The position numbers and the translations under genes were made by a program. Shown one piece after another: positions 12,581 to 59,200 of a stretch of DNA of 64,000 bases. Position 1 is the stretch's first letter, and every line of letters starts with the position of its first letter. The notes below the pieces were generated by a model. It searched no databases, was not told the origin of the DNA, and saw only the letters and a program-made list of their open reading frames with translations. This stretch comes from Eunapius fragilis (taxonomy: Eukaryota > Porifera > Demospongiae > Spongillida > Spongillidae), in NCBI GenBank assembly GCA_963681505.1, contig OY811991.1, positions 2,550,671 through 2,614,670 of the forward strand. Reading direction: 5' to 3'.

Positions 12581-20453
<7,873 letters not shown>

Positions 20454-23600: not shown

Positions 23601-26600
23601 GGTTGAGTTGGTATATTTTGTGATGATCGGTCGTTAATTACTTGTCTGTACGTAAATGTTTGGTCACTTATGCAATGTCTGCATGCTTTGTCAATTAGTG
23701 GTTAATCTGCCCAATGGAACTTCATAGGGGATATTCTCTTCTGCTTTTAATAATAACTAAGTTGCTTTGGCATGCCTAAGTTACTTTTATTTTCAACCCC
23801 CTCCTCTCCACTTGTCTTGTACAACTGGAGGAGACATCCCTCCATCCGTTCACTTGGAGGCAAGACCATAGACCATCACGCTTAGTTGTGGGACTGCAGA
23901 TACAAAATACCGAACCACCAATGCGTTCATAGCATGTACATGTAGCACAATAGAAAGCCACCCTTTGACCACAGATGAGGCGTGGTTTGCACGACAGGCA
24001 TATGCTGAAGATTTTGTAGGCAGGGAATCTTCCTTTTGCTTCTACATGTAGGTTATAGTGCTACCTGAGGTTTCAATGTGTGCAATACTATCAGTAGCGA
24101 TGTGTGCAATATAACACTGACACTGATAAGTATCACTCTTGGCATCTGCACTTGTCCTTCGACTGCCATTGTTACTGATGTAGCGCTCACGTAGTTCTCA
24201 AAATCCCTTTTTGAATGCACCGTATATCCAAGTACTAGACTAATTATTACATATGGTTCTCCTCTAGTGAAGCTTGACCTTGAGCTGCAGATCCAACACT
24301 CAGAATCATGTGCAGAACCGTTGCAGTTTCTTGATCCTTTTTTGCAAGCTGTACTGGTTTGTATTGCTCTCTCTATTACGGTTGACCTCACCATTTACAC
24401 TGTTTGCCTCTGGCTCATAATTCCCCAAGTTATTCTCCCGAAAGAGCAATGTGCCTTGGTGCATTAGTTCTCCACTTGAACTGGGACTATTGCACCGGTA
24501 CGGGACAACAGACGGAGTGATGTGACTAGTCTCACTGTCACCCGAGGAACTTTCACTTCTTTCACCAACAGCGAAGCCTTATTCCCTCCTCTCCATGGCT
24601 CTGCAAATGGGTTGTATGATATGATCCCTAACTGCCTGCAGACTCCTTCGGATAGCAACTGGTCGTGTGCATCCCTCTTAAGGTATATAGAAGTCTTCAT
24701 GACCTTATCACCGAACGACACCTCCAGGTCCAGTCGTCCGTCCAGTGAAAATGGCTGTTTATTTCATGTTCCTGGCACCTTGTCAGTTTTCTTGATGTCC
24801 CTCTTCTTCAACTTGGCTTGTGCAGCAACCCTCTGGAAGAGATCCCCCCACCAATGATGGAGATGTCTGAGCCACTGTCAATGAAGCCTCGCACGGGAAC
24901 ACCTTGGATATCCACTTTTACACAGTGTGAATGGCTCCCAGTGTCCTCCACTCTAACTTACCACGCATCCATTCTCTGTTCCTGCCTGTGATTTTTAGAC
25001 AGTCGGTAAGCTGGTCTCATGCTTTCTGCCCCTGCAGTCCTTGGCAACATGGCCTTCCTTGTTATACAGATAGCAGCGCCTAGATCCAGTACCATTAGTA
25101 CGTTGTGATGACCTATTGCTACGCATGGGCTGTGTTCGTGGGCCTGATCCCACCAGTGTGATCTGGAAGAATGTATCTGTCCCTTCTCCGTGATACCTCT
25201 CACGCCTCTTAAGACTGGAAAGTCTTTTCTCCTCATTTTTTGCTGCAATACTTAACTCTTTATATGTGTTTGCACCTGACACTGCTGGGGGTTTCATCAG
25301 CTTATCCTGCAAACCTTCTTGGAGCTGTCTGTATAAGAGAGCATCTCTTGTCTCCACAGACATGGCCTCCCTCCTGTATGCTATGCAAAAGGTATGCTCC
25401 AGTCTCCGGATCAGTTCATCCACAGACTTCTCTCTCCCTGAGTCAGATGACGAAAATCGTGGACAGCCAATCGTCGAACAAAATCTCTTCCAACTCTCCT
25501 GAGAAGGAATCAATTGGTGGTGCCTTCCCAGACCGTTTACATAAGATATGTTGTCACTGGTGATGGCGATGGGGATCCTCTGTTGCTGGAGACACTACTT
25601 CGCTTCGCACTATCTCCTGGTTCTGACAACTGTGCCATCAGGAGAGCTATTTCCTCGTCCTTGGATTGGATGATGGCATCAAATTTCCTCAGCTGAGCAC
25701 AACTAGCCTTCCACACCTCCTGCAGGCGATTTGTGCTTGTGACAAGAGCTGTCTTTACCTCTTCTAGCTCCTTATTAGCTTCCTTCAGGGCTTCTCAGAT
25801 CTAATCTTCCTCACTTCTCTCTTCTGGGCCTTTGCCGGATCCTGGCTCCTCGTTTAGTGAGGTTTCGTTCGTCTTTGCCATAGGTGCTGCGTCTAGGAAG
25901 ACTCCGTCGGCATTCTATAATTACAGGTGCACTCTGCTCCTATCTTCCGATTCATTCGCCACGACCTGAACATTCGCTGGTTCACGTTCATCTTCCATGA
26001 GTTTACCTTCAATGGTTTGCAGTATTTCAGCTGCCGAAGCTCTCATTAGCTGTGACTATTTGGATAATAAATAAATGAAGGCAATTCATCATTTGGATTT
26101 ATTTCATTGAATAACTTTATAAGGTACCCCAGATAAGTAGCATTTTATTGTCTTGGGGCCAAACCTTTATGCTGCGCACCAAAGTAACAGAGTAATTTTC
26201 CTGTCACTAAGAAGGCGTAACACATTGTATCTAGTGCAGAAAGTATAAAATCTTCTCAGGGACCGAGTCATATGACCTATGAGTTGAGGAGGCTAAGCCC
26301 TGGTGAAAATGCCACATCCAGATTGGAAAGGTCCAATTGCCTATTATTATTATTATTATTAGATACACATTAAGTTGCTAATCTATATCACTTAGTTGGA
26401 CATAACTAAACTTCCTTGTTTCACGCTTTGTCTCCCACATCCAACCTCTTCATTTTCCAGCACACGTTCTTTGACAACACTGGACTAGCTGCGTCCGATT
26501 TTTCGCTGTGAGGATTTAGATAATGGTGGGCAAACTGCATCTGTTGCTTGCGAGTTTTTGAAGAACAAAATCGCAGCACAATCCGCTGTAGGGTCCGAGT

Positions 26601-29600
26601 GATGTTGCTCTTCCATGGCGGTAATCAGCTTGTCAACGCTGACAATGCTCTCCTTGCTTTAACAGCTTCCTTTCTTTTTGCATAATCTCCAGCCCCTTCA
26701 TTGCTCTGAAGTCTAGATACTCATAATTTCTGCCCTTCCGAACTCACACCTTCCTCTTTGTCCTCGCCAATATCCAAACTCTCCAGACTAATGTCAAAGT
26801 TACCTGTGTTTAGAATGGCTTCTAACGCTTTGCACTTTTCCCACTTCTATGGAAAGCCTCCTTGGCTCTTGTCTTGACCCCCGACGAAGAGGAAGGACAG
26901 TAGTAGCGCACCTATTCTTCTGCACGACGCAGAGCTCAATGAGCTGCATTTATTGAAAACATGATTACATACAGGAGTAAACAATTTATATCAGGCTACA
27001 TCGTTATTCTTATGACTAATACACTATATACATATATAGAGTAACTAAACCAAATTGCATGCTCTGCTTAGGAGAGCTCTGGCATTGCACCTCACCAGGG
27101 TTACGTTTAGCCTCCCATAGATGTCTACCAAGAGCTTCGACTCTGGTTTCCTACGCCAAAGGACAGGCGCGAGGCCAAATGGGAAAAAGCAAGCCTGGCT
27201 TCAAGACCCCAGTTCCCATAGCTCTCCACAGCAAGAGGGATGCATTTCCATCCAAGGGTATGACACTTGGGGTCATTGGCCTGGTGCTTCCTCTGCTCTG
27301 CCAGTAGTCCAGCTGTTCCTGCAGTAACGCTTGATTCATGAAGTGACACAGGTGTAAGAGGAGACGTCACTGTTACATCAAAAGCGGCAGAGCTTCCACC
27401 TATCCAATTGTTCACTACGGCATCCGCATTATTAATAAATAATAATGTAGTATTGACACATACACATGGATAGAATCTTAAACATAGCCTATAGTTAATT
27501 CAAAATACATCTGGTGAGGATGGCAGTGGCATTGGCCCTCACTAGACGGAGTTTGAGTCTGCCATAGATGTCTCTAAGTACAGCCGACTTGGGCCTGCAT
27601 ATAAGAGTGGAAAGCTGAGAAGCCAGCTGTGAGAAGGCTTCAACAGCTTCATTTCCCCATGCACCATAAGACTCTGCTACCAGGGGAACACACAACTAGC
27701 CAAGTTCTTTGCATTTTGCATCATTGGCCTTGCCTTATTATTATTATTATTTCTTATAATTATTAATGACAGTTAAACATGGAATATATACACCTACAGA
27801 TAAAAGTTATAAAATATATTAATACATACACACTACCCCTACCCATGCACTATCGTTTCCCCACTTCTCAGCCAGCCTCTTCTGTGCTTTTGGGACCGTA
27901 TCGCTTAACCTTGCAGAGGGAGGATTTAGACAAAGGTGGGCAAACTGTTTCAGAGGCCAGCGATTTTTTGAAGAAATGATTCGTGATGTCGCTCTTCCGC
28001 GGCGGTAATCGGCTTGTCGAAATCGACAACACTTTTCTGCCCTTCCGAGCTCAACCCTTCATTTTTGTCCCCACATATATCTACCCCTTCCAGATTGATG
28101 TCAATATTGCCTGCATTCAAGATGGATTCTAAGGCTTTATACTTTTCCCACTTACGAAAGAAAGCCTCTTTCGCTCTCTTTTTGGCCCCTGAAGATGAGG
28201 TAAGTGAACAATAGAGCACCTGTTCTTCTGCTTACCGCAAGGCTTGCTGTGCTGCAATTTGAATTGCGCGCTCTTTTGGCTCATCCGAATACCAGGCTGT
28301 TCCAGAGTCAGCGAAATCAGGGTCATGTAATAGACCATCATCTCCTTCATCAACATCAGAACAGCCGGAATAATCCCAGAAATCGACCACCTCGTTATAT
28401 TCATCTACCCCAAAATAGTTTTCATCGCCGTTTTCATCTTCACAAGCCGCCATTTTTTAATGACAGTTAATAGATTTCTAATGTGTTATTAAAATAACAA
28501 ATTTTACATACACCATACAGCACACCAACAAAGTCACAGCAGCAACCACCCCACACCCACACACCTCAACCCCTGTCCTCCGAATGCTGAAACCTTGATG
28601 GGAGAGCAAGGCTCTAGCATTGGCTCTCACGAGCGAAAGGCTTAGCCTCTGGTACAAGATGGTGGTAGCCTCTGATTTGTTACATCCCATTTGGATGGCT
28701 AGACGAGCCGCAAGGCGCGAGAAGGATTGTTTTGCTTCCATGCCCCAGCATCCATATGACTCCACAGCTAGGGGAATGCACACCCATCCAAGCTCAGCAC
28801 ACTTAGAATCATTGGCATTATGCTTTTTCGCCTCAGCAACCAATTTAGAAGACCCACACCTCACCCCAGCTTACACCACTCACAAGAACAAAGAACTACA
28901 CTACACTACTCTACACACAAATGTCCTAAAGAACTACTACCCTGCCCATGATGGCCCTGGATATTGATCTAACTAAACACATGTTCATTCTGCTGTAGAT
29001 GTCATACAGGGCAACAGATTTGGGGCGACCTCGGTGGATGGACAGTAAAGATACTAGGCGTGAGAACACGTTTTGGGCCTCCTTCCCCCAATGCCCAAAG
29101 GTCTCTACGGCCAGTGGGATGCACACCCACCCCAGCTCCTGACACCTGGCATCTCTTAAGTGGCAGGAGTGAGGGGTGAAGTGACCATTATATCAAAGGC
29201 AGCCTACCCTGAACCAACACATCAGCTGAACGTGTGTTGATATGATCTCCAGATAGGCCATATCCCACTTCAACCCTTCCAGGTAGGTGGGCTCGGTGGC
29301 AGAGTTTGGCAAAGGTGTCCCTAAGGTGACTGTGACGGGTGATCACATCTCCACCATGCCAGCACGAGATTGAATGGTGGCCAAGAAGGTCAACAAGTAC
29401 GGCTCCAGGGCAGAAGTGGCAAGAAGAAGCGGTTGATGTTTTGAGGCCTAGCCACCATCTGATAGCCACTTGGCACTCTTCTGAATCTAGGTGCATGTTC
29501 AGGTCTTCAGAGGGGATGGCAGAGACCCAAGAACTTGCATGGGGGGCAGATACTGACAACATGCGAGTTTTGTTGGCTGGTGAAACAGAAGAAACTAGAG

Positions 29601-32600
29601 CTTGGAACATGTGGGTGTCAAGTTTTAAAGATAGGGCTTTCTGTTGAGGGGGAGTGTTAAGCACTGCTTCCACAGTAAGAGAATCCTGGGTTAACCCTAA
29701 CCCTAAAGTCACCACTCAGCCAGTTTTCTTCTATGCATTTCTGTAAGCTGTGTATAATCTTCTCTGCCCCTGATTTACACGCAACCCCAAATTGAGAGGG
29801 TTGGAAAAAAGAAGAGAACTTGTCCCTAAGAATGGAACAGATGCATTTCCCTGTCAGTCTGCGCAAGGTTTCTCTAACTGCAATTGGACTAACATCTGGT
29901 GAATCCCCTTCCTTGCCTTTATTGATTATTATTATTATTTAAAAAAATTACATTTATTAGTTGCAGTTACATAATTATTCTACGCGTAAATAAACCCTAG
30001 CCTACGCGTATTCTTTCTCTACCTTCCTACGCATGCTCTTTGAGCGAGCCTTATTAGGTCAGGCCGGGCCTCGTCCAACAGTCGTGGTTTTTGAGAAATA
30101 TCCACGGTGTCATTCAAGGCAGCCTCAAAGTGATCAGCCTCTTGTGTGGCCCTAAGGATCCCTCTCTTCTTGTGGCCACTCGCGAGTTGCACTAGTCAGC
30201 AGTGCCACCTTTGTGCTCATCCCATGTCTTCAATGCCTTCTTCAGATTGCCCAACTTATTTGAGCTACTACGCAGTTAGTCTAGTTCTCTCGCCCTATCT
30301 TCAGGAGCTTCTCAACATATACTATTATTCAACAAGATACTAGAGAGTACATGTATGGGCACATTATTATTATTCTTATTAAAATTATCAAATATACATG
30401 ACATACGAACCAAATACATGTATGTGTAATAAACGTGTTAATTACCTAAATAAAGTTACTATTAGTTACATAAATTCAGCCTGATGGTGGTAGTCTGGAT
30501 AGGATGGCTCTTGACATCTACCTCACCAAGATGATGTTGAGACGTCCATAAATGTCGGCAACCACCGCAGCTCTGGGCTGGGAGAGGCTAATTGACAGGT
30601 GAGATGCCAACCTGGACAATACACCCTGTGCCTCCCTACCCCAATGACCAAAAGTTTCAACAGTCATGGGGATACACATCCAGCCCCGATCCGTGCATTT
30701 GGTGCTGTTAGCATTAAGCTTTCTTAGCTCAGCACCGTTAGCTGCAGCTCCAGAGTGATAACTGGCTCCAGGTAGGATGGCAGGGCAAAGTAATGAAGCC
30801 ACTGTGATGTCCAAAGCTGCATGTTTGCCTCTATCCCCCCAGCAATCAATACACCAGCTGGACGAGTATGGTCATGACCTCCACCACCTTTCTCCTCTGT
30901 TATACTGAGATGGGCAGTGCGGCACAAACTAGCTATGGCTTCACGCAGGAGGTTGTGTTGCCACACTACATCTCCACCATGTCGGCAAGTGACACAATGA
31001 TGACCCAAAGGGTCCAGACCAACTCCTGGGCAGATAGGGCACATTGCAGACCCTGATGTGTCCAAACCCAGCCACCATCGGACAGCCACCTGGTACTCAT
31101 TGGGTTCCAAGTATAAACCAAGTTCAATAGAAGGAACCACTGATAACCGGGCAGCAGCATGGGAGGCTGATTCAGATAAGAGGCGAGCCTTATTATTATT
31201 ATTATTATTTTACATGACATATACATATGAACCAAATACGAGTAATAAACGTGTTAATTACCTATACAGTACACATTAATTATAATTGCAACTACCTAGT
31301 CTACACCCACTACCCTCTACACCTTCCTCTGCAACCTCCTTAACTTGTTTTTACACAAAACCTCTGCTGGTCTAGCCTCATTCAACTTTTTTGGGTTTTT
31401 TGAAAGATTCACGAAGTCGTTTGAGACAGCTTTCAGATGTACAAGCTCTTGCATGGTGTTAATCGGTAGAGGGATCTGGGATCCCTCCCTTTTCACAGCC
31501 ACTCCCGAGTCGCACCCTTCCGCATTGTCACCAGTATGCCCTGCATCCCAATCCCTCAATGCTTTTTTCAGGTTTCCTGCTTTTCTTTCACTACGCGACA
31601 GCAGATCTTGTGCCATTACTCTGTCGTGTGCAACTTCCCATTTCTGGTCTGGCTTAAGGTTAGTTACCATCCAACCAATTGAACGCGTCAAGCTATCAAT
31701 TTCTTCAACCAGATCTGATTGTGCACGAACGTGACGGAGATCACATATAACTCTCTCTTCTTCATACTTAAGTAATTCTACATGTGCACTTTCCTCTTCT
31801 TGTTCGTAAAAAGAAGCTGCTTTTCTCTTTAAACGAGCACCGGAAGGAGTTTTCTCCAGCTTCACTTGCGCTTCTATGCATCAGCACTTGCTCATTGGAG
31901 TGCAATCTGTGGTGACCTGCGGCAGCTGTCTTCACTGTCTAGCCATCTGGTACCGCAACTGGTAAAATCAGGGTCCTTCGCTAGCCCATCCTCTTCCGAT
32001 TCATCTGATTCTTCCGATTTTCCCTCCACAAAGTATCTATCACAAAGTTCCAAAAGGCTTCCTCATCTTCGTCCACCGCCTCTTCCATGCCCGCCATTTT
32101 ATTATTATTATTATTATTATTATTCTCATATATATATAACATTTACAGTTTTAAGCTGCACAATGTTACTAAACAAAAAACAATACACTGGAACGGAGAA
32201 GGTGAGGAGACTAACATCCAGTTGCCATTGAACGGGACAGCAGAGCTCTGGCATTCGCTCTAACTAGGACCAGGTTTAACCTGCCATAGAGAGCCGAAGT
32301 GGCCTGGGACTTGCATCAATTTGATCTAATTGCCAGGCGCGCTGCAAGTCGAGAAAGGTTTGTCTGTGCTTCAGGACCCCAACATCCATAAACCTCAACT
32401 GCCAAAGGTACACACACCCACCCAAGCTCTGAGCACTTTGTGTCATTGCTGGCATGTTTTCTGTTTTCAGCCACCTGAGCAGTTGACCCACTTGTCACAC
32501 TCGCTTCATGTAGAGTAATTGGAGTAAGCGGTGATGTGACAGTTATGTCAAAAGCTGCAGGTTTTCCCAGAACCCAATTAGGAACAAGCACGTCAGCTGG

Positions 32601-35600
32601 CTTTGTACGTCGGGCATCATGTCCCAAACCACTTCCAACTTCCATTTGGCCACCAATACCCGCCTGCCTACAAGACTCAAAAAAACTATCCCGAACCCTA
32701 TTGTGGCGAGAGACCATGTCACCATTATATCGACAAGTTAATGCATGTATAAGTATTTATTTATTTATTATTACACGAATGGGAATAAATGCACCCACAG
32801 GATTATTATGTAACACACTACTAACAGGTGTCTTGAAAGGACATTGGGCGGGACAGCAGAGCTCGAACATTTGCCCTCAGTCTCCCGTACAAACTGGAGG
32901 TAGCCTGGGACTTCGAGATATTGTAGCGTGTAGCAAGACGAGAAGCCAATCGTGCCAGGTGCTGCCTAGCTTCTGTACCCCAACACCCATAGCTCTCCAC
33001 AGCTAGTGGGACACACTTCCACCCAAGCTCAGAACATTTCTCATCATTGGCGTTATGCTTCCGCTGTTCAGCTGCCAAAGCTGCTGACCCTGCTGTCACA
33101 CTCGCTTCAGTAAAGGTACTTGGATTAAGCGGCGATGTGACGGTAATGTCAAATGCAGCTGGTTTGCCTAACATCCAGTCACGGACCAGAACATCAGCAG
33201 GTCATGTACAACGTTGGTCATGCCCAAGACCATTCCCTGCTTCAACACAGGCACCAATGCAGGCTCGCCTGCAAGTCTCCAGAAACATATCTCGAAGCCT
33301 GTTGTGGCGGGAGACTACCTCACCCCTGTACTTGCATGTTAATGCATGATGACCTAAGGGGTCCAGACAGTGTGAGGAACAGAATGGAGAGTTGGCACCT
33401 TGAGAGGAATCAATACCTAACCACCACTTTATACCAGCTTGAAACTCTGATGGGTCAAGGTGGAGATTGAGCCCCGGAGCTGGAACAACCTGGAGCCATA
33501 CAGAAGCATGGGGAGAAGAGGCAGATAGAAGTCGTGCTCTATTAGGCGAAGATAGAGATTGGAAGAGCAGCCTGAATTGATGATCTTATTATTGAATATG
33601 CATTATTGAAATAGGGATACAAGAGAATACATGAATGGGAATAAATGCATATACAAGATTATTATTATTATTATTATTTATTAATATAAATGCATACACA
33701 ATTAATACATATGCTGGTCTGAATAAATGCACCTTAATTATAGTAAAGTCACCTATAACTACAAATCCACACTCCCACCTCAATCCCCCTCCTCCAAATG
33801 AACCCTTGCACGGGAGAGCAATGCCCTTGCATTAGCCCTCACGAGCGAAAGGCTCAGCCTCTGGTACACTGTGGTGGTAGCCTGCGACCTGCTGCATCCC
33901 ATTTGAATCGCTAGACGAGCCGCCAGACGTTTAAAAGTTTCCCGGGCTTCCATGCCCCAGCATCCATATGCCTCCACAGCTAGTGGAATACATACCCAAC
34001 CCAGCTCCTTACACTTCTCATCATTAGCAGCATGCTTCCTAACCTCGGCAACCTGAGCGGATGACCCACATTTCACGCCCGCTTCCGTCAAAGTGGTTGG
34101 ATTAAGCGGAGAAGTGATGGTGAGGTCAAATGCAGCAGGTTTGCCAAGGTGTTAGTTTTTAACCAAGACATCTGCAGGACGAGAGTTATTATTATTATAT
34201 ACATGATTTGGGCAATACTATAACCAGCTATACGCACACAATACACTCAAATGGAAGCTGTCCTTCACCCTTCCACTGCACCATCAGATGTCGAAACAAT
34301 GTGCCAGGTCTAGTCCCGTTCGACTTCGGTGGTTTTTTTTAGAAGATCCACGTGGTCTTCGGAGACAGCTTTGGAGTCCTGTTCCCCTTTCATAGCCCTA
34401 ATCGGTAGAGGAGATTCCTCCCTTTTCGCGGCCACTCCCGGGGTCAACCCCTCAGCCTCGTCACCCAAACGCAAAGTCCAGCCATCCGGAGAGATGTCTC
34501 CCAATAAGAGCGCACTCCGCGCATACATTGTGGCTTCGGCCAAAGATGGCAAGTAGCATGAGGTGGCCAGCCTACACATACCAATCGTAGAGGCAAGAGT
34601 TTGGTCCAAGGGGCGAAGGTAGAATATCCAAGTAGCACCGCTCAACCAACCGTGTGCGGTTCAAAATTATTATTGTTATATGTTTATTATTATATTACAA
34701 CATTACTGCAATGACACACACAAACAACGTCAAGTGGTGCTCCCTTGCCAGGATGGCTGTGGCAATGGATCTAGCCAAAGTGATATTCAACCTGCCGTAA
34801 ATGTCTGCCAAGATGGAAGGTTTGGGAGAGGACATGCTGATGGCAAGGTGGGATGTCAACCTAGAGAAAGTGAGGTTAGCCTCCTTACCCCAGTTGCTGA
34901 ATGTCTCCACCGCTAAGGGAATGCAAGTCCGCCCCAATTCCTAACATTTGGGGCCATTGCTGAGTAGCTTACGGGTCTCCGCTGTTGTAGAAGCTGCACC
35001 AAACATTCAACATGAATCCCTCAGTATGGCTGGGCAGAGAGGTGACGTTACTGTGATGTCAAACGCTGCAGGCTTTCCTCTGTCCCACCCCGCAATGAGC
35101 ACATCAGCAGGTCTGGTGTGGTTGTGGTCCCTGGTAAGACCATGGCCCTTCATCACGGTCACACTTAGATGAGCTTGCCGACCGAAATCAACAATGGCAT
35201 CACGCAAGTGATTATGCCTAACCACCACATCTCCCCCATGCCTGCATGTTGCAGCATGGTGACCCAGGGGATCAAGGGCAACCTCTGGGCAAAAGGGACA
35301 CACAGATCTACCAACACCCACCACCTCATTGCGACCTGGAACTCATTGGGCTCCATTGGAAGGGACCACTGACAGCCATGAAGGTGAATGAGGGGCTGAT
35401 ATAGACCCCAGTCGGACCTTGTTGGCTGGGGAGGATGCTTCTAATAAAGATTTGAATTGCTCCTCATCAATCTTGCTGGAAAGCTCTCTCTGAGGAATGG
35501 GAGAAGCAAGGACAGACTCAACCGTGATTGCATTATGAGAGGCGACTTTGGAGTTATAGGCCGTAACTGCCTGCTGAAGATGGAGATTGTTCAATTTGCC

Positions 35601-38191: not shown

Positions 38192-38229
<38 letters not shown>

Positions 38230-47200: not shown

Positions 47201-50200
47201 TTGATCTTTTTCAGGTCCTCTGCCTGGCTAGCGACAGCACCTGCTGCCAAAGTGGACTGTGCCAGGTGAGATGGGGCATATGTGTCAGAACAGGTGGCAT
47301 CCCAAACCAAAAGGTTCCCGTTCTTCCATGGGACCATGGTGATTCCATCAGGGCGTTTCCCATCTGAGCGGTCTAGGCCTGTGGGTTCTAGTCTGGATGG
47401 GATGTGGGAGGTGGTCAGGGCTCGATGGATAATTTCATTTAGCGCAGCATGACGATAATGATGACCAGTACTAAACCGACAGCTGAGACCATGAAGTCCA
47501 AACTGGTCAACTGTTGCACCACAATGCTGGCAAGAATGAGGGCTACATAGAGCTACTCCAAGGCGAAGACCAACTGCCACTCTAACTGTCTCATTGTCCA
47601 TTCTTAGGCCCAGTGAAGAGTTAGGGACAGCATGAAGCCAAGCACCAGACTCCTTCCTGGAGACAGCCAGTAGGCGAGCCCTAGTGACGGCATCAGAAGC
47701 TTGGTCTAACAAAGCTGCAAAGACAGCCTCTACCCTTGGAGTGTCCCATGCCTTTTATTATTATTTTTTAATCAGACAATTATTATGACAGATATATGAT
47801 ACAGTATGCACAAAACAATCTACCTACAGCATCAACATGCACAGTTTATAGGGAGCGGGATAGGATGGCTCGAGAGTTTGCTCTCACAAGAGCTAAACTT
47901 AGTCTACCAAATAGTTCGTTACACACTAGCGACTTGGGGAGACCCTGCCTGGTGGACAAACGTGTGGCAAGTCTTGATAGTGCCTGAATAGCCTCAGTAC
48001 CCCAACATCCATATGTCTCCACTACAAGAGGAATACAAACCCAGCCTAGTTCACTGCACCTTCCATCGTTAACCCTGTGCTTGCGGATCTGGGCAGCCAT
48101 AGCAGCCGAACCTGCTGTCACACTCGCTTCTTGAAAAACATGTGCATTCAGCGTTGATGTGACAGACAGGTCAAATGCTGCTGACTTACCCAGGACCTAG
48201 TTTGGAACCAGAACATCAGCTGGACGAGTACATTCTCTAGACCACCCTCCCATCTCTAGCTGTGGAGCAAGACAGGCACGGTGACAGAATGTCTCTCAAC
48301 TTGTTATGACGGGAGACGACATCACCCCCCAACTTGCAACACAGTGCATGATGACCATAAGCGTCCAAGGCAGCGTTGCACCGAGTGCAACTTTGACCTT
48401 GAGCAACTGGTATACCAAGTCACCATTTTATTGCCACCTGGAATTCAGAAGGCTCCAAGTGAAGGCCTATGCTAGGGGATGGAGTAACTGATAGCCAAGC
48501 TGAGGCATGAGGTGATGAAATTGACAACAGATGTGCCCTGTCGATTGGAGTGGAGTTACTAAACAATTTTCTTGAACTGACAATCCTCTATTTTGTTTGA
48601 CAGGAACTTCTGGGTGGTGGAGGAACAGCTGTTGTCTACAAAATCTGAAGTGAGTCAGGAGGATCAACAAGGTTGTTGTAAAGGTCTACAGAGTGATGCA
48701 AGTACCTACAAACCTCATAAGATAAGCCTGAATTGACAGCTGAGGCTAAATACGCAGCAGGAGAATGGTAGGACACACGTCGCAAGCCTAGACCGCCTCG
48801 ACTTAAACTAAGTTGCGCCTGCTGCCACGCAGAGTCAGAAGTGTCTACCGCAGTTCACTCTGCAAAACACTGCCGCACCTCATCATCAAATAGACTGAAG
48901 GCATCACCAGCTAAAGAAGGTGGGATAGTTCTAGCCAGATGTATCAGCCTACAAAACCCTCCACATTGACGAAGTAGAAGCATCGCAAGATGAGGATCTG
49001 AAGAACCTACCTGGGCCAATTGCTGGAGCAACTTGGAGGCATCTGTACGCTTTTGAGCAATATACTTGGCACAGAACAAAAGATCTCCTATTGGGGCCCC
49101 TAGTATATCGAAATGAGGCACGTTGGATTTTTTCATTTCATTTGGGAATCTACTGAGATCATTGACACTGAATAATTCACATTTAGACAGGTTGATATGA
49201 AGGCCAAGAGGTCGACCCAAGTCTGTTATGATGGAAAGCACATTATTATTATTATTTTATTATTATTATTGAGTCCATATTATTATTATTAAATTACATG
49301 TCAGTCCTTTTCCTCCAGAAATGAAAAGATCATCTCACCCTAATATTGTTATTTTGGGCATCCCGATTGGTGACAAGGCTTTTTGCGCCACCTTCATTTC
49401 GGAGAAACATGATGAGGCCAAAGCTCTTCTGCTCATACTAGAGGAAGTAAGTGCAGTCGACCCACATGTGGCCTTTTCCCTCCTACGTCAATGTGCGGGA
49501 TTCTGCAGGCTGGCCCACCTTGCTCGTGGCACGCCACCCTCCCAGGCTATATCAGCCCTTGAGGCCTTTGATCATGACATCCGAGCTACCTTCTCCAAGT
49601 GGGTCATTCTATGGCAGATCACCCGATGGAAATGCTATTTTTCCACCACACCCCCTCAGATTTGAATTATAGTTTGCAGATCTGTTTAGTATATTAGGGA
49701 AAGTACGGCCACCAATTATCACATCTGTATCTTTATCAAATCTTGAGAATCTTGATTATTAATTATTCATTTCTTTTTTTACCCTTTCATCTTTAAAATT
49801 CATATCCCTTTAGCCATTGGTCACAGAGTACAGTGCAAGGTATCATTGAGAAGCCAAATCCATGGCAAATTATACTATTGAGTTATTTTAATTATTTCAT
49901 GACGTTTATTAACCATTAAATTGTAACACAAAGTTTGGCAGCTCATGGCTATGAAAGGACAAGCTTTTATTAAAATGTTTTATTTTTCCAGTAAAGCCCT
50001 AACATCATAGAGTATAAAATGTTATAAATTGGACTGGCTAATCTTATTTACAAAAAACTATAAATGTTTGAAGTACAAGCATTTCGTTTTGTATGCACCT
50101 TGATGAGATGGTACATATGGCTTCATCCTTTATATGGTGCATTATCAAAACAAATGAAGTTTTTTATTGTTTCAAATTTGATTTCCCAGCCAAAAATAAT

Positions 50201-53200
50201 CAGTTAACATAGAGGTCTTAACATAAAGGCAAATGTCAGGTCTACATTAAAAAAAGGTACAAGCTGTTTGAGCCTTTGTCAATGATCCATGTGAAATAGT
50301 GTATCCTTTGGGACTGGTCAAGCTAGGTGGGTCAATGGTGCAAAGAATGTCACTTTCCTCAATCCAGCACGTATCATCACTTTCAGGGAAAACAAATACA
50401 AATTGGTTCATACCACCACTGGGGTGCATGAACCTGATTAGTAAATCTCCAAACTCTTCAGAGATATCATTGACTGTACCATACCACACTTTTTTATCAT
50501 ACATACATGCTACATAGTTGCCTTTGACTACATCAGAGATGTCAATTTGCAACGCCTCCACAATGCTGACTACTCTGGCCCTTGGTCCTGAGGAAACTTC
50601 ATGCACTGCCAAAGTAGTTGTGGAGAGTGGAACATATCTATGATACCTCTTGAGTACCCTTGAGAGTGTTGCTTACGATGCGCCATTCAAAAAGCAATGT
50701 AGACTACTGCCACCAACTAATCACAATATAACTACTCAGGATATAAGCTGTATATAATGATCACTTATCAGAAAGAACACTCACACAAGAACCCCCCCCC
50801 CCTTTAAATAGCTGTATTTTAAAAGGTTCAGCAACAGGTCAGATCTAATGAATAGGGTTCTACACCTCACTTCATTTGCCTCCATTCAGTGTAGGGACAA
50901 ACCAAAGCATGAACCTAATTCATGGTCTCATGTAAGGCTTCACACTTTATTGTGTTTACATTGCAACCACAGCATTTCATTGCTGTCATGGAGTGCTCTA
51001 TGTCAATAACCTTTGTCATTTGAAATACTCAATAACCAAATAATTAGCCACTCCTATTTTGATTTTAAATAACTCTATGATGATACAACCTTGTAATGTA
51101 TTATCTCTTACACTGCGAGATTTTGTCCCTTTTTACTGGGATGTGCCGCAAAAATAGAAATTCATGTTCTGGTTAATTAACCTCCCAAATTATTATTTCA
51201 AGTATGTGTTCAGATTGTTTGATGCTTCAACTTCTCAAATATACCTTGCATTAAATTATGTGACTAATCATTACAGAGATATTAGCAGTCAAAGATTTAG
51301 GGTAAAGAAATAAATAAAACAATGATCACACCAAATCTTGAAATCTGATAAAGATTATAATGGGATAATTGATGTAGTTCCTTTCCCAGTCGTGGTAAAC
51401 ATATATACCCAATTTCATCCAAATATGAGACTGTGTGGTGTTATTGACCGGGTGATCTGCCATAGAATGACCCAAGTGCACAGCAGTTGACACCTCCAAT
51501 CAGGCCTGGCAACAGGCAGAACTCAGCTTAGGCAGGGGTGGCCTGGGCATGCGCTCCCTGAGTCGGCATTCACCAGCTGCTTACATCGCCTCTCTGAGCT
51601 CCTCTGGTGCTGGTCCATTGTCCCAAGAACACCTTATCCATGCAGTTGAGTTGTTTAACTCACTTGTACCTTTATCTGAGGCGGTCAGCATAGAGGAGGT
51701 GTTAATATCCCCTTTCCATCAAAAGGTGCTGTCCTGCAAGATTGACAACCATCTGTTTAATACACTCTATGAGCAATCTTCTGCCGCAAATAGAGCACGC
51801 CTTCTCTCTGTCTCCTCCCCTCATGCTGCATCTTGGGTGTCAGTCATTCCCTCCGAGGGGCTAGGCCTTCATCTCCAGCCTTCAGAGTTCCAGGTGGCCA
51901 TTAAGTGGTGGCTGGGCCTAGACACCTCATGTGGCTCAATTTGTCCTCTGTGTCCTGGGAAAGTACTTGATCCCCTTGGCCATCATGCACTCACCTGCAA
52001 GCGTGGTGGAGATGTAGTAACCCGCCACAATAAACTACGTGACACCCTTGCTGAGACCTGTCGCAGGGTGCACCTGAGTGTTAAGGTGGAGGCAGGAAGT
52101 AACCTCTCCAAAGACCATAGCCACACTCGCCCTGCAGACATCCTAGTACCCAACTGGTCTTTGGGTAAGCCAGCAGCCTTTGACTTGTCTGTGACGTCAC
52201 CGCTTAACTCCAATATTTTACTTGAAGCGGGATTCGAAGCAGGTCAGGCTGCCAGAGCTACCGAGGAAAGGAAGCATGAAGAAAATGATGCCAAATGCAA
52301 GGAACTAGGGTGGGTTTGCGTCCCCATGGTGGTTGAGGCATATGGTGCTTGGGGGACAGAAGCAATGGAGTCTTTTTCTCTTCTGGCTTCTCGCCTTGCA
52401 ACTAGCTCCAACAGGGCTAAGGCTGAGGTCCTAGCTGCCTTATATGGGAGGCTGAACCTCATACTAGTTAGAGCCAATGCCACAGCCATCCTCTCCAGGT
52501 GTTTTGTCCCTGTCTAGTACCTATAGTAGGGTGCATTTAATTACCTTACTGCTGTATATTCGTGTATCTATACTCCGTTATATAATTGCAATTATATTAA
52601 TAATAATAATAAATATAAACTACACAAATGCAACAATAACCAGACACAAGTCACAAAACAACATACACACTCAAATGTATTCCTGAAGATGGTAGGAAAG
52701 TCGGCACAAAATAGCCCTCACATTTGCCCTAACTAAATGGAGATTGAGCCGGCCATACAGTTCAGACAGAACCATAGATTTGGGCCTGGATGAAAACGTG
52801 GCTAGGCGAGAGGCCAACATGGAGAACGCCTCCAAAGCCTCCTTCCCCCATGCTCCGTATGATTCCACTACCAGAGGAATACAGACCCATCCAAGATCAC
52901 TACATTTAGCATCATTAGCCTCATGTTTTCGGAGCTCAGTGGCATGTGCAGCTGCTCCAGCAGTTACTCCCGCTTCAGAAAGAATTTTGGAGTTTAGCGG
53001 TGATGTAACTGATAAATTACAGGCTGTAGTTTTGCCCAGAATCCAGTTGGAGATGAGAATTATTAATATATATTCAGTCTTGATAATAACACACTATCAC
53101 TATTGTCTGTCTCAGATAATAAGAGAGTTCATGAATTTATTTTTTCATTAAAATCAGTTGTGACCACGCCCAAAATCATGCACCAATAACCTGTATTATG

Positions 53201-56200
53201 ATTACTATTTGTGATATAATGAAAGAAATGTTTTCAGCAAGTATGTCTCAGTAACAAAAGCGCAGGAAAGACCACTACGTATCCTCTTCGTCTCTGTTGT
53301 GAGAGTTTGTGGCCTCACCATCTGAACTGGAGCCAGTATCGTGACCCGCATCATCCTCATCCTCATCCTCAGATGTGTCCTCACTGTCTTCAAGTAGCAT
53401 TTCATCAGCTTGCCACTGTTGAGTTGCATATTTCCAAGTATGACGATAGGAAGCGCCCCAACTTGCTGCATCTTGCTGTCTGATTTTATCCTCAGCAAGT
53501 TGTTTGATATGTGACATAGTGAATTCTCGATTATTCTCTCGTACATAGCGCTTTATTTGGCCCCACATAAGTTCAATTGGGTTTAACATGGGATGAGCCA
53601 CAGGCAAAATAAGTAGGCGGATATCGGTTCCATTTGCTGCATTATATGCATCAATCCAGTCTTGCACAAGATAGCGAGATTTGGGTGTTAGCTCTTTTGC
53701 AAGAGCATACAGCATTTGCTTTGTCCAGCCTTTGTTTTTTTTGAGGACGACCAGATGGACCAATAACAATCATTTCCTCTGTAAGGAAACGATCTTTCGT
53801 CATCAAAATGCCATTGTGGTCTTTGGCACAATGAGCAACCAGCCAATCAATCAATTGTGCACGCTTCATGCTTGCTGTGGCCGCTTTTGTATCTTCTGTA
53901 AGCATGGTGTGATAAGGTGCACGGTCTATAACAATGCAGCTATTGGGGGATATATAAGGCAACAGGTGCTCATGTAACCAGTGCTGGAAAATCTCACCAT
54001 TCATTTCGGAGTGATAATCTTCAGACTGCACATGACCTTTCCACATCTTCACACTGGCATCAACCCAACCATCCTTGGACCCAGCTCCTATCAGGATCCA
54101 ACGTTCCCCCTTTCCACTTGGTACCTTCAGCTCACAGTCACATGTACCATCCGTCCAACAGTGTGATGGTACCATATTTTTGTTGAGCCAACTTTCATCC
54201 ATGAAGATGAATGCCCGACCTTGCTGTGCATATTCAAAAAAGAACTTGAGATACCACGCACGGCGTTGCACATTACCAGGATCCTCATACATCTGTAAAT
54301 AATGCTTATCTTCACGTCTGCGAAAAGTGATGCCACAACGCTTTGTCAAAGCACGATGAAGTGTGGAACGACTCCACCCCCAGCCAGGGTTATCTTGCTT
54401 TATACGCATCAACAAAGAATCCAGGTGGATAGGCTTCTTGTCGAGCACAAGCGCTACGAGTGCAGGGCGAATTACAGCAGCATCTTCGTCATCCATTTTC
54501 ATTCCTTTGCTGCGCATCTCTTTTTGTCCACCAGTGGGCATCTCACTTTCATTCTTGTTCAACAAACGGAATAGAGAGGCTTTGGATATACCAAGATAGT
54601 GGGCGGCACGATCCCGAGCACGAGGAAGCCCAAAAGTGTTCTGATTACTTTTCTTTTCAGCCTCACATACTTGAGAAACATTCATTACGAGTTTGTGACA
54701 GCAATCCCTAAACACTCGAGTAACCCGTTGTCGTTTAGCAACACAATGACGCTTGGCAGTTTGTACCGCCATGACAGTGCAAAGAGACGTCACGTGATGT
54801 TTAAATGAATAATATTTGTTATCCAAAAAATACATACGTTTTTGTTGTGTTATATTTCTATAACCATACACCGCGCATGCAACGAATATGTTTAATAAGT
54901 AGCAGCAAGCCTTACTTAAATATATGCCAGGTTTGAAGCTAATTGACCAAAGGTTTCTTGAGATAATAAGGTTTCATACTAAGATACCTTTTTGCTTCAT
55001 ATGCACAACCTAATCCTAAAACTTGATAATTTTAATAAACTAGTACATAGAGATGTGCAATAGAAATATGTGGTAAAATATTGGGCAATTAGTTTAATTT
55101 CGTTTGTAAGATACAAATGATATTATGGATGCAAAATAACTCTCTTAGTGCTTGAGATTGACAATAAGTACAATTAAACTACTAATAGCAAGTTAGGAGG
55201 GTGGAAGCTCTCTGGCCAGGATGGCTCTAGCAATGGACCGAACCAGGATCACATTCATCCGGCCATAAATTTCAGCCACAATTACTGCCTTGGGGGAGGA
55301 CTGGTGAATGGCTAGGAAGGATGCCAGTCTGGAGAAGGTATCATGTGCCTGCTTGCCCCAATTGCCATAAGTCTCACTGCCAATGGAATGCAGGACCAGC
55401 CCAACTCTTGGCACTTGGGTCCTTTGGAGTGGAGCTTGCAGGTCTCTGCTGCCAGGGCTGCCGCACCAACCTGGTGACATGATTCACCCAAGATGACAGA
55501 GCAGAGTGGTGAGAGGTAATGGTCAGGTCTAGTGCCGCAGGTTTGCCTCTGTCCCAGCAAGCAATGAGGATGTCAGCAAGTCTGGTGTGGGCAAGGTCTC
55601 TGGTGAGACCATGACCTCTCTCCACACTCACACTCAGGTGGGCACGATGACAAAGGTCAAATACCTCATCCCTGGAAATGATTATGGCGTGTGACCACAT
55701 CCCCCCCCATCCCTGCAGGTCACAGCATGGTGACCAAAAGGATCAAGAGCAGTATCAGGGCAGAATGGGACATGGACCGACCAGAAGTTCTAACCCCAGC
55801 CACCACCTAATAGCCATCTGGAACTCATTCGACTCCAGGCACAAGCCCAAACCAGGGGAAGGGACCACTGATAGCCAAGAGGAAGCATGAGGAGCAGCCA
55901 CTGACAGGAGGCGAGCTCTGTTAGCTGGAGAGGAGGATTCCAACAAGATGTGGAAATGTTGGGCTTGGATCAATCCTGACAAGACCTTGTAGTGAATGGG
56001 AGACTCCAGAGCAGAATTGACTGTAATGGCATTAAAGGGGGAGACCTGAATGTTAAACATTGCCACCGCCTGTTTTAGGTGGATGTTATCAGCCTTGCCA
56101 AAGCCGGAGAATGACAGGGAGGCAATGAATGCTGCAGCATCATGGTGAGAGAGGGAGCAAAGACCCAGACCCCCAAACTTTAGTCCTAGCTGTGCCTGGC

Positions 56201-59200
56201 TCCAGGCATCATTGGTGACATTGATGGCTGAGCACATTACAAAGCACTGCTTGATCTCCTCATCAAAAGACCTTAGAGCGTCTGTGGCCAGGCTTGGTGG
56301 GGTAACCCTTGCTATGTGGACCATCCTGCAGAAGTTACCACACATGCACTATAAGGAAACTGCTACCTGGAGATGGACTGCAGCAGCATCCTCTAGACCA
56401 GAGAATAGCTTCCTAGACTCAGCACACCTCCCAGCGATAAACTTAGAACAGTGTAGATAATCCCCAATTGGAGCACCTAGGATGTCCAGATTAGGCCGGA
56501 GTGAGCACCTCACCTCCGGTGGGAATGATGTGTTGTCCTGCCTGCTGAACATCTCACACTTGGCCAGGTTCACATGTAGGCCCAATGTAGGACCCAACTC
56601 CTCAATCACATGTAAGGCACGCAGTACAACTGAGCGGGTGCCAGCCAAAGCTCCATCATCGAGGTACCATGCTTGGAGAAGGATTTCAGCATACTCCTCA
56701 TCTGCTCCAGGCTAGATACCAACTTAAGGAGGACTAGTGCAAACAGTAAGGGACCTAAAGGGTCACCCTGCTGCACTCCAGACTCAGAGCTGATCTGACC
56801 AAGAGGGTGCCATAGCAGAGGATGGGTCCCATAACACCAAGACACCCAAGGTAGCAACTCTGGGGGAAAAAAGTAGCACACTCATCAAGGACGTTCCTCA
56901 TGTCCACCTTAAGTACAACAAAGTCCTCGTCCATCCAGTGCTCTCCAGTGCATCCCCTGAGAGCATGGGCCACCTTCTCTGCCCCTGCACGACAGGCCAC
57001 ACCCAGTTGCAGGGGTTGGAAGAACTCAGTAGACTTGTCCTTCACCAAGGCACACATGCACTTCCCAGTCAGCCTCCTTATTGTCCCCCACCGTAATGGG
57101 CCTAATGTCAGGTGGGCAGCCCTCCTTAATTCTGATCAAGGCATTCAAGCAGCCTCCAGCCAAGAACTTAGACACAGATGTAGGTACCTTTCCAGCTGCC
57201 AGGATATTGACCAGCTGCCTGAGGGAGGAGAAAATGGATGTGGGAAGTGGGACACTAGCCACATCAAGCAGGTGTTGGACTCAAAGACCAGAAGGACCAG
57301 CTGCAGTGTCCTTGGGGAAGGAACGTAGAACAGAAAGGATATTGAAATCTGGCTCGAGGGTGAGAGAGGCAGAGTGGGACGCTGGAGCTACTGGAGTGGG
57401 ACAGCTGGGATGTTTGGATTTCAACAGATGCCACGTTATCTTATTATTTGGGGCAATACCACTGGACTGAAGGGCTCTGCAAGCTTTTCCAAACATACCA
57501 GATCTGCCTAATGGCACAACTTGGTCAATGACCTTTGTCTGATTGTTGATGGACACACCTCCAGGATGATTTCGATTGGCTGACCAACTCTTGGCCAAAG
57601 ACCAAAGGGCTCCCAGTTTGTCATCTGACCACACGTTGCAGAGAGAATCCACTGGCAGTGGCTTGTCATATCAATTTTAGTCAATGCCAGGTCACACATG
57701 TCCAAGTCTGTATACTCCAGGACAATATAGTCATATAGAACATATACGGATGCCTATCTGCTTAAGGTACCACTAAACATAACCGCTACAGTGCTGAGTG
57801 CCTTCGGAGTGGAATTCAACCCGAATGGCAGTGTTGGATAAATGCCTGACCACTTTACTTAGGTCCTGTGGATGTATAGAGATCAGCGAATATACTGCTG
57901 ATGTCAATCCTTACCAGTAAATGATTATGGTGTATTTGAGCAGCAGTGCTTCTGAACATGGGAATAGATATTAATAAGCTGGATTAGCACAGATCGTATG
58001 TACATGACATGCATGCATGCATGTATAGCAGCTGCACCTAAATGTTTATGGTAAGACACTGGTACTTAATTGACATTGCATGATGGAATACTAAAATGCA
58101 TTTTGAGGGTTAATGTGACTGATGTTCTTTTTTTTTTTCAGTCGTTGGATTTCGACTATCATCCTATGTTGGTGAGTTACAAGTTTGATTATGATATTCG
58201 ATTCTGGAGCATGTGTGGTAATTTAGGTTGCCATTACTTCTGTTGCATATACACCTGTATAGTTGATGTTCATCTGAAGATGAATATGTCCATCATTCTG
58301 AGGATATGTGGTCTGTGGTTAACTAGTGTAGTTAGTGGTGACACGATATCGCCTGCACCCCTAGCCATGGCTATCAATGGGCGTTTTAAATAGTATGGTA
58401 TGTTAATTTGTGTCACCGATTACAGCTTAATCACCTGATCTTCTTTCATAAAGCTGTTTCAGTATCAACCAGATATAGCAAACCTGTATTTTATAAAATT
58501 AGTTGGTAAAGCTTCCCCTGGAGTACTTTCCCCTTGCAATGGGTATCAATTCGAACTGGTTCACCAACAGTTCAGAGGGACAGGCAGCTGCTGCAGCCTG
58601 TTGATTGCTAACCAAGCCAGCACGCACTGGCAGCCATATCGTTGGCCTGCATTAGAAACCGTGATCTTGACCATAGAGGGTGCCACCCAAAAATGTAGTG
58701 TGTACTATCTGCTCCCTTGAATGAGGTTTGAGTGCGAGGACAAGTTGCAAGGTTTCCAAATGTGCCTCTTTGGCTTTGCATTCCTTCTACATTGAGTGCT
58801 TGACCAGGCACTGCCTTGTCTTGAAGGTAGAGCAAATTGTCACAGTTAATGTACTCACCTAGCTTATCTTGTTCACCATCCACCTTGCTGGAGTGGGAGT
58901 ACAGGTGATGGGAGGAGAGTCTGTGGATGACCTGGAAGAGCTGGAGTTGTGGTGCTATTTTGCCTGTGCCTTGTGCAGGTGTGTCAGCATCTGGGTGTGA
59001 GGTTCAGCCTTGACAATGGGCTCAGGTGTAGCTTATTTACTTCGAGGTTCACTGGGAGCCTCGGATCTGGAGGTGGGCTTTGTGTTTCGTAGCTGTGTGG
59101 CTCCTATTGCTTGTCCTCCGCTGTATCTGACTGGCTCTGCCAAGGTCACCTTGTTGCCTGGTATTGTGCTATGATGCATCACGTTGTACACCTATATCTA

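Follow-up and report, generated by a model that had tools for sequence, protein, structure and literature searches.

Dong, an element of the R4 clade, is a non-long-terminal-repeat (non-LTR) retrotransposon with a restriction-like endonuclease (RLE), and its genomic target in Bombyx mori was reportedly identified as (TAA)n by Xiong and Eickbush in 1993. Here, we describe an array of TAA-tailed RLE elements in Eunapius fragilis. It lies in a window of 64,000 nucleotides (bases 2550671-2614670 of contig C21 in a 219-Mb assembly of 24 contigs), where copies of a retrotransposon family that we call A, and of a partner family, D, in which no reverse transcriptase (RT) was found, follow one another head to tail. 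The initial annotation of this DNA drew a parallel with Dong, which holds for the (TAA)n target, present here as a preference, and for the RLE, and reaches no further than these two. In the covered part of the published ribozyme work, Dong has a 5' self-cleaving ribozyme at its junction, and the assay of that ribozyme used seven TAA repeats upstream (PMC3774820). Here, the two full-length copies of the lineage represented in the window by copy A16 have an ATG that almost abuts the TAA run and gave no Rfam match at the gathering threshold. Arrays of Dong stacked upon itself were not met in the literature passages covered.

A second point of comparison is provided by the MoTeR elements, which are also of the RLE type. 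As far as the covered sections describe them, tandem copies of MoTeR1 and MoTeR2 in Magnaporthe oryzae are always head to tail, with the target repeat between them and truncated copies in their midst, and MoTeR2 probably uses the RT of MoTeR1 (PMC7367193). For FoTeR, a related element of Fusarium, the available passages report truncated copies with telomeric repeats (PMC12857005). The sponge array resembles those of MoTeR in its head-to-tail copies separated by the target repeat, in its truncated copies, and in having a second element of the dependent type (here, D). Yet the repeat used by MoTeR and FoTeR is telomeric and found at chromosome ends, whereas here it is an interstitial microsatellite that the elements supply themselves. 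Specifically, the arrays are internal, located at 2.58 of 5.79 Mb on C21 and at 8.0 of 25.0 Mb on contig C1. The HeT-A, TART and TAHRE elements of Drosophila form head-to-tail non-LTR chains by successive additions to chromosome ends. The sponge arrays share the head-to-tail chain with them, but consist of internal insertions into TAA, and one copy, on C1, was found inside an internal (TAA)n. Other RLE elements with repeat targets include the (TG)n-specific Togen and microsatellite-specific families of the HERO clade, and Utopia-1_NVit is occasionally tandem in U2 genes (PMC4640811); TAA is mentioned in neither of two main texts on such elements, and the passages covered describe no self-generated arrays. 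The literature searched, which was covered in part, yielded no description of (TAA)n arrays that are interstitial and stacked on themselves. From our analysis, the sponge arrays appear to combine an array logic like that of MoTeR with a target like that of Dong, but in a form that is interstitial, self-supplied and common to many lineages.

We consider it highly probable that RLE elements in this genome prefer (TAA)n and that their own (TAA)n tails host later copies in the same orientation, building interstitial arrays. Our results document a preferred target, the adjacency and common orientation of copies, independent truncations, recent activity, and one pair of empty and filled sites. In terms of mechanism, the RLE, whose activity is predicted, would nick the (TTA)n strand in line with what is understood of R2 biochemistry. 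The UAA tail of the RNA would then pair with (TTA)n and prime cDNA synthesis by target-primed reverse transcription, and this synthesis would often halt early, giving rise to 5' truncation. As a rule, a copy terminates in (TAA)n, so its insertion usually makes a fresh preferred target. The new tail would lengthen the target, later copies of the same lineage, of other lineages, or of D would land there in the same orientation, and repeated rounds would generate head-to-tail arrays within chromosomes. A self-extending array had been proposed in the initial annotation, and the target preference, the adjacency to other copies, and the empty and filled sites largely bear that idea out.

The array in the window

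Copies in the window were located by tblastn with the element proteins, and the pieces were grouped by hand, with tiny 3' fragments left uncounted (Table 1). This yielded 21 RT/RLE pieces of family A between positions 27057 and 57547, or 22 when a diverged RLE piece at 46966-47754 is included. There are six copies of D (named family B in the initial annotation), four of which are covered by protein matches; D copies 1 and 2 are linked to each other by DNA similarity. These numbers agree with the at least 22 family A and six family B copies over about 31 kb that were first described. So does the orientation, said to be uniform except for one copy: every A and D copy, along with the diverged copy C, lies on the minus strand, except the A copy at 49309-52511, which is on the plus strand. 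No element was recognisable at 39050-39377. Two DNA transposons break the array: one, with terminal inverted repeats (TIRs), sits in the inverted copy, and the other, at 53-55 kb, is DDE_3-like. Besides A16, at least one window copy (38.3-38.7 kb) has relatives of equal score elsewhere.

It had also been claimed that almost every junction has the (TAA)n form. We chose 28 junction or tail spans by eye, each consisting of the end of one copy and the start of the next, or of the array end. A TAA run of at least 9 nt, read in the sense of the array, is present in 20 of them, so the claim stands for about 70% of spans and fails for the rest. TTA tracts of at least 12 nt number 20 within the array versus 1 in the remainder of the window, and the corresponding numbers for TAA tracts are 2 and 0. 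Only one pair of segments in the array exceeds 90% identity (361 nt, 96.7%), and the other listed pairs are 70-78% identical, so the array is not a tandem duplication of one unit. With that one pair excepted, the copies are mostly about 60-78% identical to one another. This array is one of several of its kind in the genome.

TAA runs and neighbouring copies across the genome

To describe insertions elsewhere, we used the 3' 400 nt of A16 (39378-41536, taken to be the copy so named in the initial annotation) as a query. The search returned 41 matches (103 candidates, 40 scored), and 25, including the window copy, were used. Of the 16 that were dropped, 14 represent other lineages (75-86% identity), one is a piece of 51 nt (C4:6786687), and one is the second piece of a locus on C8 (C8:7681252). 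Drawn from the best 40 of 103 candidates, the 25 copies of the A16 lineage are at least 98% identical; two are full length, and the others are truncated at differing 5' positions. A16 itself is a very recent copy.

The initial annotation had suggested surveying the flanks of such copies across the genome, with a majority at non-TAA sites speaking against its proposal. Instead, a TAA run of at least 9 nt is found in the 5' flanks of 16 of the 25 copies, compared with 31 of 20000 random 40-mers (0.16%) drawn only from 9.5-26.0 and 57.8-63.9 kb of the window. The scored flank was 40 nt long, except in L017 and L024, whose alignments entered the TAA run and for which 65 nt were scored. Across the set, the 5' flank is either TAA or other, mostly A+T-rich DNA. 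Furthermore, another copy lies within 350 nt of 17 of the 25 copies. Eleven of the 25 stand directly downstream of a 3' end in the same orientation (that of a D copy in one case), an arrangement expected at 0.6% from a rough density based on 7011 first-look candidates, of which 150 were scored. The remaining arrangements are four head to head and two with a downstream neighbour only.

The identity of the upstream neighbours bears on whether such chains could form at once, through the copying of several RNAs in a single integration. The RT of R2 can jump between templates, template jumping would yield the same architecture, and chimeric 3' ends among A16 copies suggest template switching or recombination. 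However, the upstream neighbours of A16 copies are other lineages, with about 43-68% protein identity and some broken frames, and the empty and filled sites on C1 differ by a single copy. We regard template jumping as a very unlikely origin of the arrays.

The preference for (TAA)n and its consequences can also be viewed from the repeat itself. A search with (TAA)8 gave 757 matches, of which the 100 listed (C1 and part of C2) correspond to 45 distinct sites. These sites are partly dependent: paralogues and members of the A16 set are among them, and 57 bp separate two of them. Upstream, 21 of the 45 have the end of a same-orientation copy no more than about 360 nt away, and in 20 cases this lies near the end of the open reading frame (ORF); the exception, at C2:4931588, stops short of the ORF end. 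Downstream, a same-orientation copy is found at 26 sites (within 20 nt at 16 of them) and an oppositely oriented copy at one. Same-orientation copies occupy both sides of 18 sites, and 14 have no neighbour in either orientation. Among the listed sites, and subject to their partial dependence, a downstream copy is present at 18 of the 21 behind a copy versus 8 of the other 24 (Fisher p 0.0007). As a separate observation, the members of some site pairs (C1:9182044/C1:13202389, C1:9803378/C1:10031156, and C1:9958564/C2:12849185) have upstream sequences that are identical or almost so and contain no RLE match; these appear to be other TAA-bearing repeats, some with an A copy downstream.

Similar patterns were documented in other lineages. 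From the 150 scored hits of the RLE protein search, we removed 22 of the A16 lineage, 4 in a mirrored arm on C8, and 2 adjoining A16 copies, and we drew 40 copies at random from the remaining 122. A TAA run of at least 9 nt occurs within 300 nt past the RLE match in 31 of the 40. A downstream neighbour is present within 740 nt in 26, in the same orientation in 17, and the gap between the TAA run and the next copy is 2-3 nt in 7 of those 17. As a control, 800 bases were taken at 20 of 34 random draws on ten contigs; these contained no element, so the window array is not a matter of chance, and a TAA run was present on the tested strand in none of them and on either strand in one. In addition, the 150 scored hits include 29 neighbouring pairs less than 10 kb apart (null mean 1.0, maximum 6 in 2000 draws). 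Both members are on the same strand in 24 of the 29, or in 21 of 26 without the mirrored C8 arm.

The mirrored arm consists of four equal-score pairs of RLE hits on opposite strands at C8:4465658-4511464, which could represent a large inverted duplication or an assembly artefact. Misassembly could in principle account for the arrays as well, and the mirrored hits at C8:4.466-4.511 Mb could be an instance of it. Nevertheless, the same architecture recurs at many loci, and artefactual joining by identity is disfavoured because the window copies are, with one pair excepted, mostly unlike one another (about 60-78% identical). We give an artefactual origin almost no weight.

Growth of arrays and observations that weigh against it

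A second array, at C1:8012220-8040939, has all 24 of its protein pieces on one strand and contains 19 TAA versus 4 TTA tracts. Within it, the block at C1:8013962-8017087 recurs at 8036267-8041444 with 97-98% identity, and there its (TAA)4 is interrupted by a 2-kb A copy. The empty site (8015796-8015803) consists of a copy, a tail with a tiny 3' fragment, (TAA)4, and the next copy. The filled site (8038110-8040150) has the same left part as far as two TAA units, then the extra copy, (TAA)4, and the same right part. The two sites thus differ by one 2-kb copy that lies within the (TAA)n between two others. The array also has three tails that are paralogous to one another; behind each stands a different element, in one case A16. 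Separately, blocks of 0.5-2.1 kb with 77-96% identity surround a recurring tail at C1:8010000-8029300, a case of segmental amplification.

Several observations weigh against the growth of arrays by insertion into (TAA)n tails. In the window, eight of the 28 spans hold no TAA run as long as 9 nt (26925, 27425, 28455, 28865, 37800, 46215, 52585, and 53055); span 52585 is the tail of the inverted copy, and 53055 is disrupted by a DNA transposon. Genome-wide, nine of the 25 A16 5' flanks, at 55-98% A+T, have no TAA run of 9 nt, and eight of the 25 copies have no recognised neighbour. In the sample of other lineages, nine of 40 copies have no TAA tail on our measure, and nine of the 26 downstream neighbours are oppositely oriented. 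In the C1 array, some blocks are repeated at 91-99% identity, as in segmental duplication, with others at 76-90%. Finally, loss of a copy via exchange between flanking TAA tracts would leave the same trace as the empty and filled sites, so that the direction of change is unfixed. Even loss presupposes insertion there, and hence the copy sat in that (TAA)n whichever direction is correct. Because nine A16 flanks have no TAA run and eight copies have no recognised neighbour, the preference is not absolute: TAA is a preferred, not an obligatory, target.

Those nine insertions, mostly in A+T-rich DNA, are also what would be seen if there were no target preference at all, with insertion into any open A+T-rich DNA followed by retention in a few tolerant introns. 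Yet such a process is hard to square with TAA runs in 16 of 25 flanks versus 0.16% at random, with 26 versus 1 orientations at the listed (TAA)8 sites, or with the gap of 2-3 nt in 7 of 17 same-orientation neighbours, and we find it extremely improbable. The repeats on C1 invite another explanation, namely, that arrays arise mainly from DNA-level duplication of a few initial insertions through unequal exchange or break-induced replication. Some of the direct repeats there (0.4-2.1 kb, 91-99%) share both a truncation point and a complex tail, and MoTeR arrays are able to extend by duplication, according to the covered part of the source (PMC7367193). But the window array has its one pair above 90% and other listed pairs at 70-78%, A16 copies differ in truncation point and neighbours at 25 loci, and the empty and filled sites differ by one copy only. 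Duplication is an unlikely main source of the arrays, and in the window its contribution is minor. Since the C1 array has both a filled site with its empty counterpart and repeated blocks, tail insertion and segmental duplication both seem to operate.

A broader interpretation can be offered, though with somewhat less than even confidence. In this genome, the retroelements may be a chief source of long (TAA)n, which in turn may serve as a chief landing site: an autocatalytic habitat in which the insertion rate of a locus would rise with copy number. Arrays would then be self-seeding sinks that divert insertions from unique DNA, open to many lineages and exploited by the RT-less D, whose conserved protein would have a part in the shared cycle. 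A transposon that builds its own target becomes countable inside ordinary chromosomes, beyond telomeres. Copies can be ordered, dated, and set against empty paralogous sites in one genome, and RLE target choice, 5' truncation, and array growth thereby become testable. Practical interest also attaches to a lineage that combines recent copies with a target of just three bases. Proteins that insert genes at chosen sites are already in use as tools (PMC11371274). The enzymes in question belong to the RLE type.

Elements, host gene and other features

From sequence comparison, family A appears to be a large, recently active group of RLE non-LTR retrotransposons. The A16 frame matches RVT_1 of Pfam (E 6.9e-15) and four PDB sequences (E 1e-4 to 4e-3), two named R2 and two named 'reverse transcriptase-like protein', which we take to be R2Bm. 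By these matches, the RT of family A is of the R2 type. A CCHC knuckle lies between the RT and the endonuclease, with the spacing CX2CX8HX4C in the 42860-45364 frame and a second gap of nine residues instead of eight in A16. A C-terminal RPAD-X14-D core is present in A16 and the 42860 frame, and RPD..D in C; among these three, the strict KX2KY motif is in C only. For RLE elements, the covered part of one source gives the knuckle as CX2-3CX7-8HX4C and the endonuclease consensus as a PD..D/E core with a distant K (KX2KY) (PMC5678591). In L024, located at C14:2.05 Mb, an open frame extends over 1169 residues, and its N terminus is rich in Cys. RLE elements are characterised by a single ORF with N-terminal zinc fingers; here, finger-like patterns in the N-terminal region were recognised by eye only, and the N-terminal frame of the copy at 42757 has no Pfam match.

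The ends of the elements vary. The start codon nearly abuts the TAA run in L017 and L024, both full length, and some 10-25 nt separate the two in the full-length neighbour of L018. The near full-length copy in the window has its ATG at 46212, separated from the A-rich end of the preceding D copy by about 110 nt that are not TAA, and a general lack of a 5' untranslated region (UTR) is disfavoured for this reason. Rfam gave no family, HDV-like ribozymes included, at the gathering threshold in nine sources, including the 5' ends of two full-length copies. The 3' ends of the 25 A16 copies are of four types (16, 5, 3, and 1 copies). The alternative ends all start in or beside one shared GCTGCTGTAT stretch, with bodies that remain 98% or more identical (L009-L032, L036), and the fourth matches, by eye, the 3' end of the inverted window copy. 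This suggests that 3' ends are exchanged between lineages. Among nine dereplicated 3' UTRs of 40, so few that a weak motif could escape, no 6- to 8-mer rose above the shuffled maximum, and no common 3' motif besides TAA was found.

Relatives of D are also dispersed, with 41 matches in several lineages genome-wide (all 74 candidates scored). Three copies are open, each with 263 residues (L147, L148, and L149). L148 and L149 are recent, as they are 99% identical at different loci with TAA tails; L147 ends in A-rich DNA with no notable TAA run. Comparisons of L147 with L148/L149, and of L148/L149 with the window copy, give a ratio of nonsynonymous to synonymous substitution (dN/dS) of 0.18-0.22. 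The ratio is 0.33 when L147 is set against the window copy and 0.36-0.56 when these copies are paired with the partial L150, and it reaches 0.54 and 0.85 in the two most closely related pairs. Outside these two pairs, dS is 0.45-2.6, which is high and saturated. These values, although imprecise, suggest that the ORF of about 263 amino acids is under constraint in active lineages; D would then be a retroelement without RT whose protein is seemingly constrained. Over 86 nt, D copy 4 is 75.6% identical at its 3' end to that of the neighbouring A copy, and the other D copies have only short matches around the TAA tail or none. D would use the proteins and machinery of A. Half-LINEs of the HAL1 type lack RT, have their own ORF, and need an autonomous partner. 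D is alike in being RT-less with its own ORF, and probably in its dependence on A, but its protein matches nothing in Pfam above the curated cut-off, and no similarity to the A protein was detected.

The array is probably located antisense within a TRMT2A-like gene, given that RRM-like and methyltransferase frames flank it on the plus strand. The first (21231-21338) has weak PDB matches to 7pv5 'FI05218p' (E 0.015), which is presumably fly TRMT2A, to hnRNP D0 (0.11 and 0.14), and to human TRMT2A 7ntn (0.34); its Pfam match to RRM_1 (E 0.16) is below cut-off. The second (63276-63380) resembles the uracil-5-methyltransferases RlmC/RlmD of NCBIfam at E 1e-4 to 0.03, far below cut-offs, and has no Pfam match. 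A PF05958 profile search of the genome for exons of the host gene gave no match; its remaining resemblance to TRMT2A is our assumption. It is likely that the array sits in a single intron.

Table 1. Positions of array copies and flanking features within the window; the sense strand of the array is minus.
Feature	Position	Strand	Remarks
Whole head-to-tail array of TAA-tailed retroelement copies	26341..57670	-	sense strand = minus
D copy 1	26341..26925	-	18-nt TAA tail; DNA similar to D copy 2
A-family 3' piece	26926..27433	-	tblastn
A-family 3' piece	27434..27733	-	tblastn
D copy 2	27735..28458	-	5' end at ATGGCGG; 15-nt TAA tail
Two A pieces	28459..29923	-	28601-28870, 28935-29923; tblastn
D copy 3	29925..30320	-	
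A copy	30363..31190	-	3' end resembling that of D copy 4
D copy 4	31191..32098	-	longest D of the window; ORF piece 31320-31880
Three A copies and a tiny 3' fragment	32099..34185	-	fragment 33586-33656; TAA tails
D copy 5	34186..34662	-	
Four A copies	34664..39050	-	34664-36728, 36750-37803, 37805-38189, 38191-39050
A16, very recent copy	39378..41536	-	open RT+RLE frame 39531-41558; 24 near-identical copies elsewhere
Three A copies	41537..42730	-	21-nt TAA tail of the first abuts the A16 5' end
Near full-length A copy of another lineage	42757..46225	-	RT+RLE frame 42860-45364; N-terminal Cys-rich frame 45289-46224
D copy 6	46330..46843	-	
C, diverged RLE-family copy	46844..47754	-	26% identity to A16
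A copy	47755..49238	-	tblastn
Sole inverted A copy	49290..52615	+	interrupted by TIR DNA element (about 49600-51470)
A copy	52616..53062	-	tail to tail with the inverted copy
Later DNA transposon	53063..55150	-	DDE_3-like frame (53651-54973)
Final (5'-most) A copy	55150..57670	-	
Probable host-gene exon, RRM-like	21231..21338	+	weak match
Probable host-gene exon, part of uracil-5-methyltransferase	63276..63380	+	

Other features were noted in passing. The TIR element has perfect 25-nt terminal inverted repeats (GGGTCATTCTATGGCAGATCACCCG), and the DDE_3-like transposase frame matches Pfam at E 4e-4, below cut-off. Just ahead of the array, an open frame at 24995-25594 (minus) has no Pfam match and contains what looks by eye like a degenerate gag-like zinc knuckle; it is perhaps the remnant of an LTR-type retroelement. 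Minisatellites with units of 31, 24, and 30 bp are located at 15323-15711, 13757-13988, and 19267-19561, respectively. Elsewhere in the genome, the mitochondrial cox1 on C24 is read through 9 TGA codons within its Pfam match and has a sponge-like protein, which fits a non-bilaterian animal and most likely a sponge. C9:9625139-9675257 contains broken cox1 fragments, which are probably nuclear copies of mitochondrial DNA.

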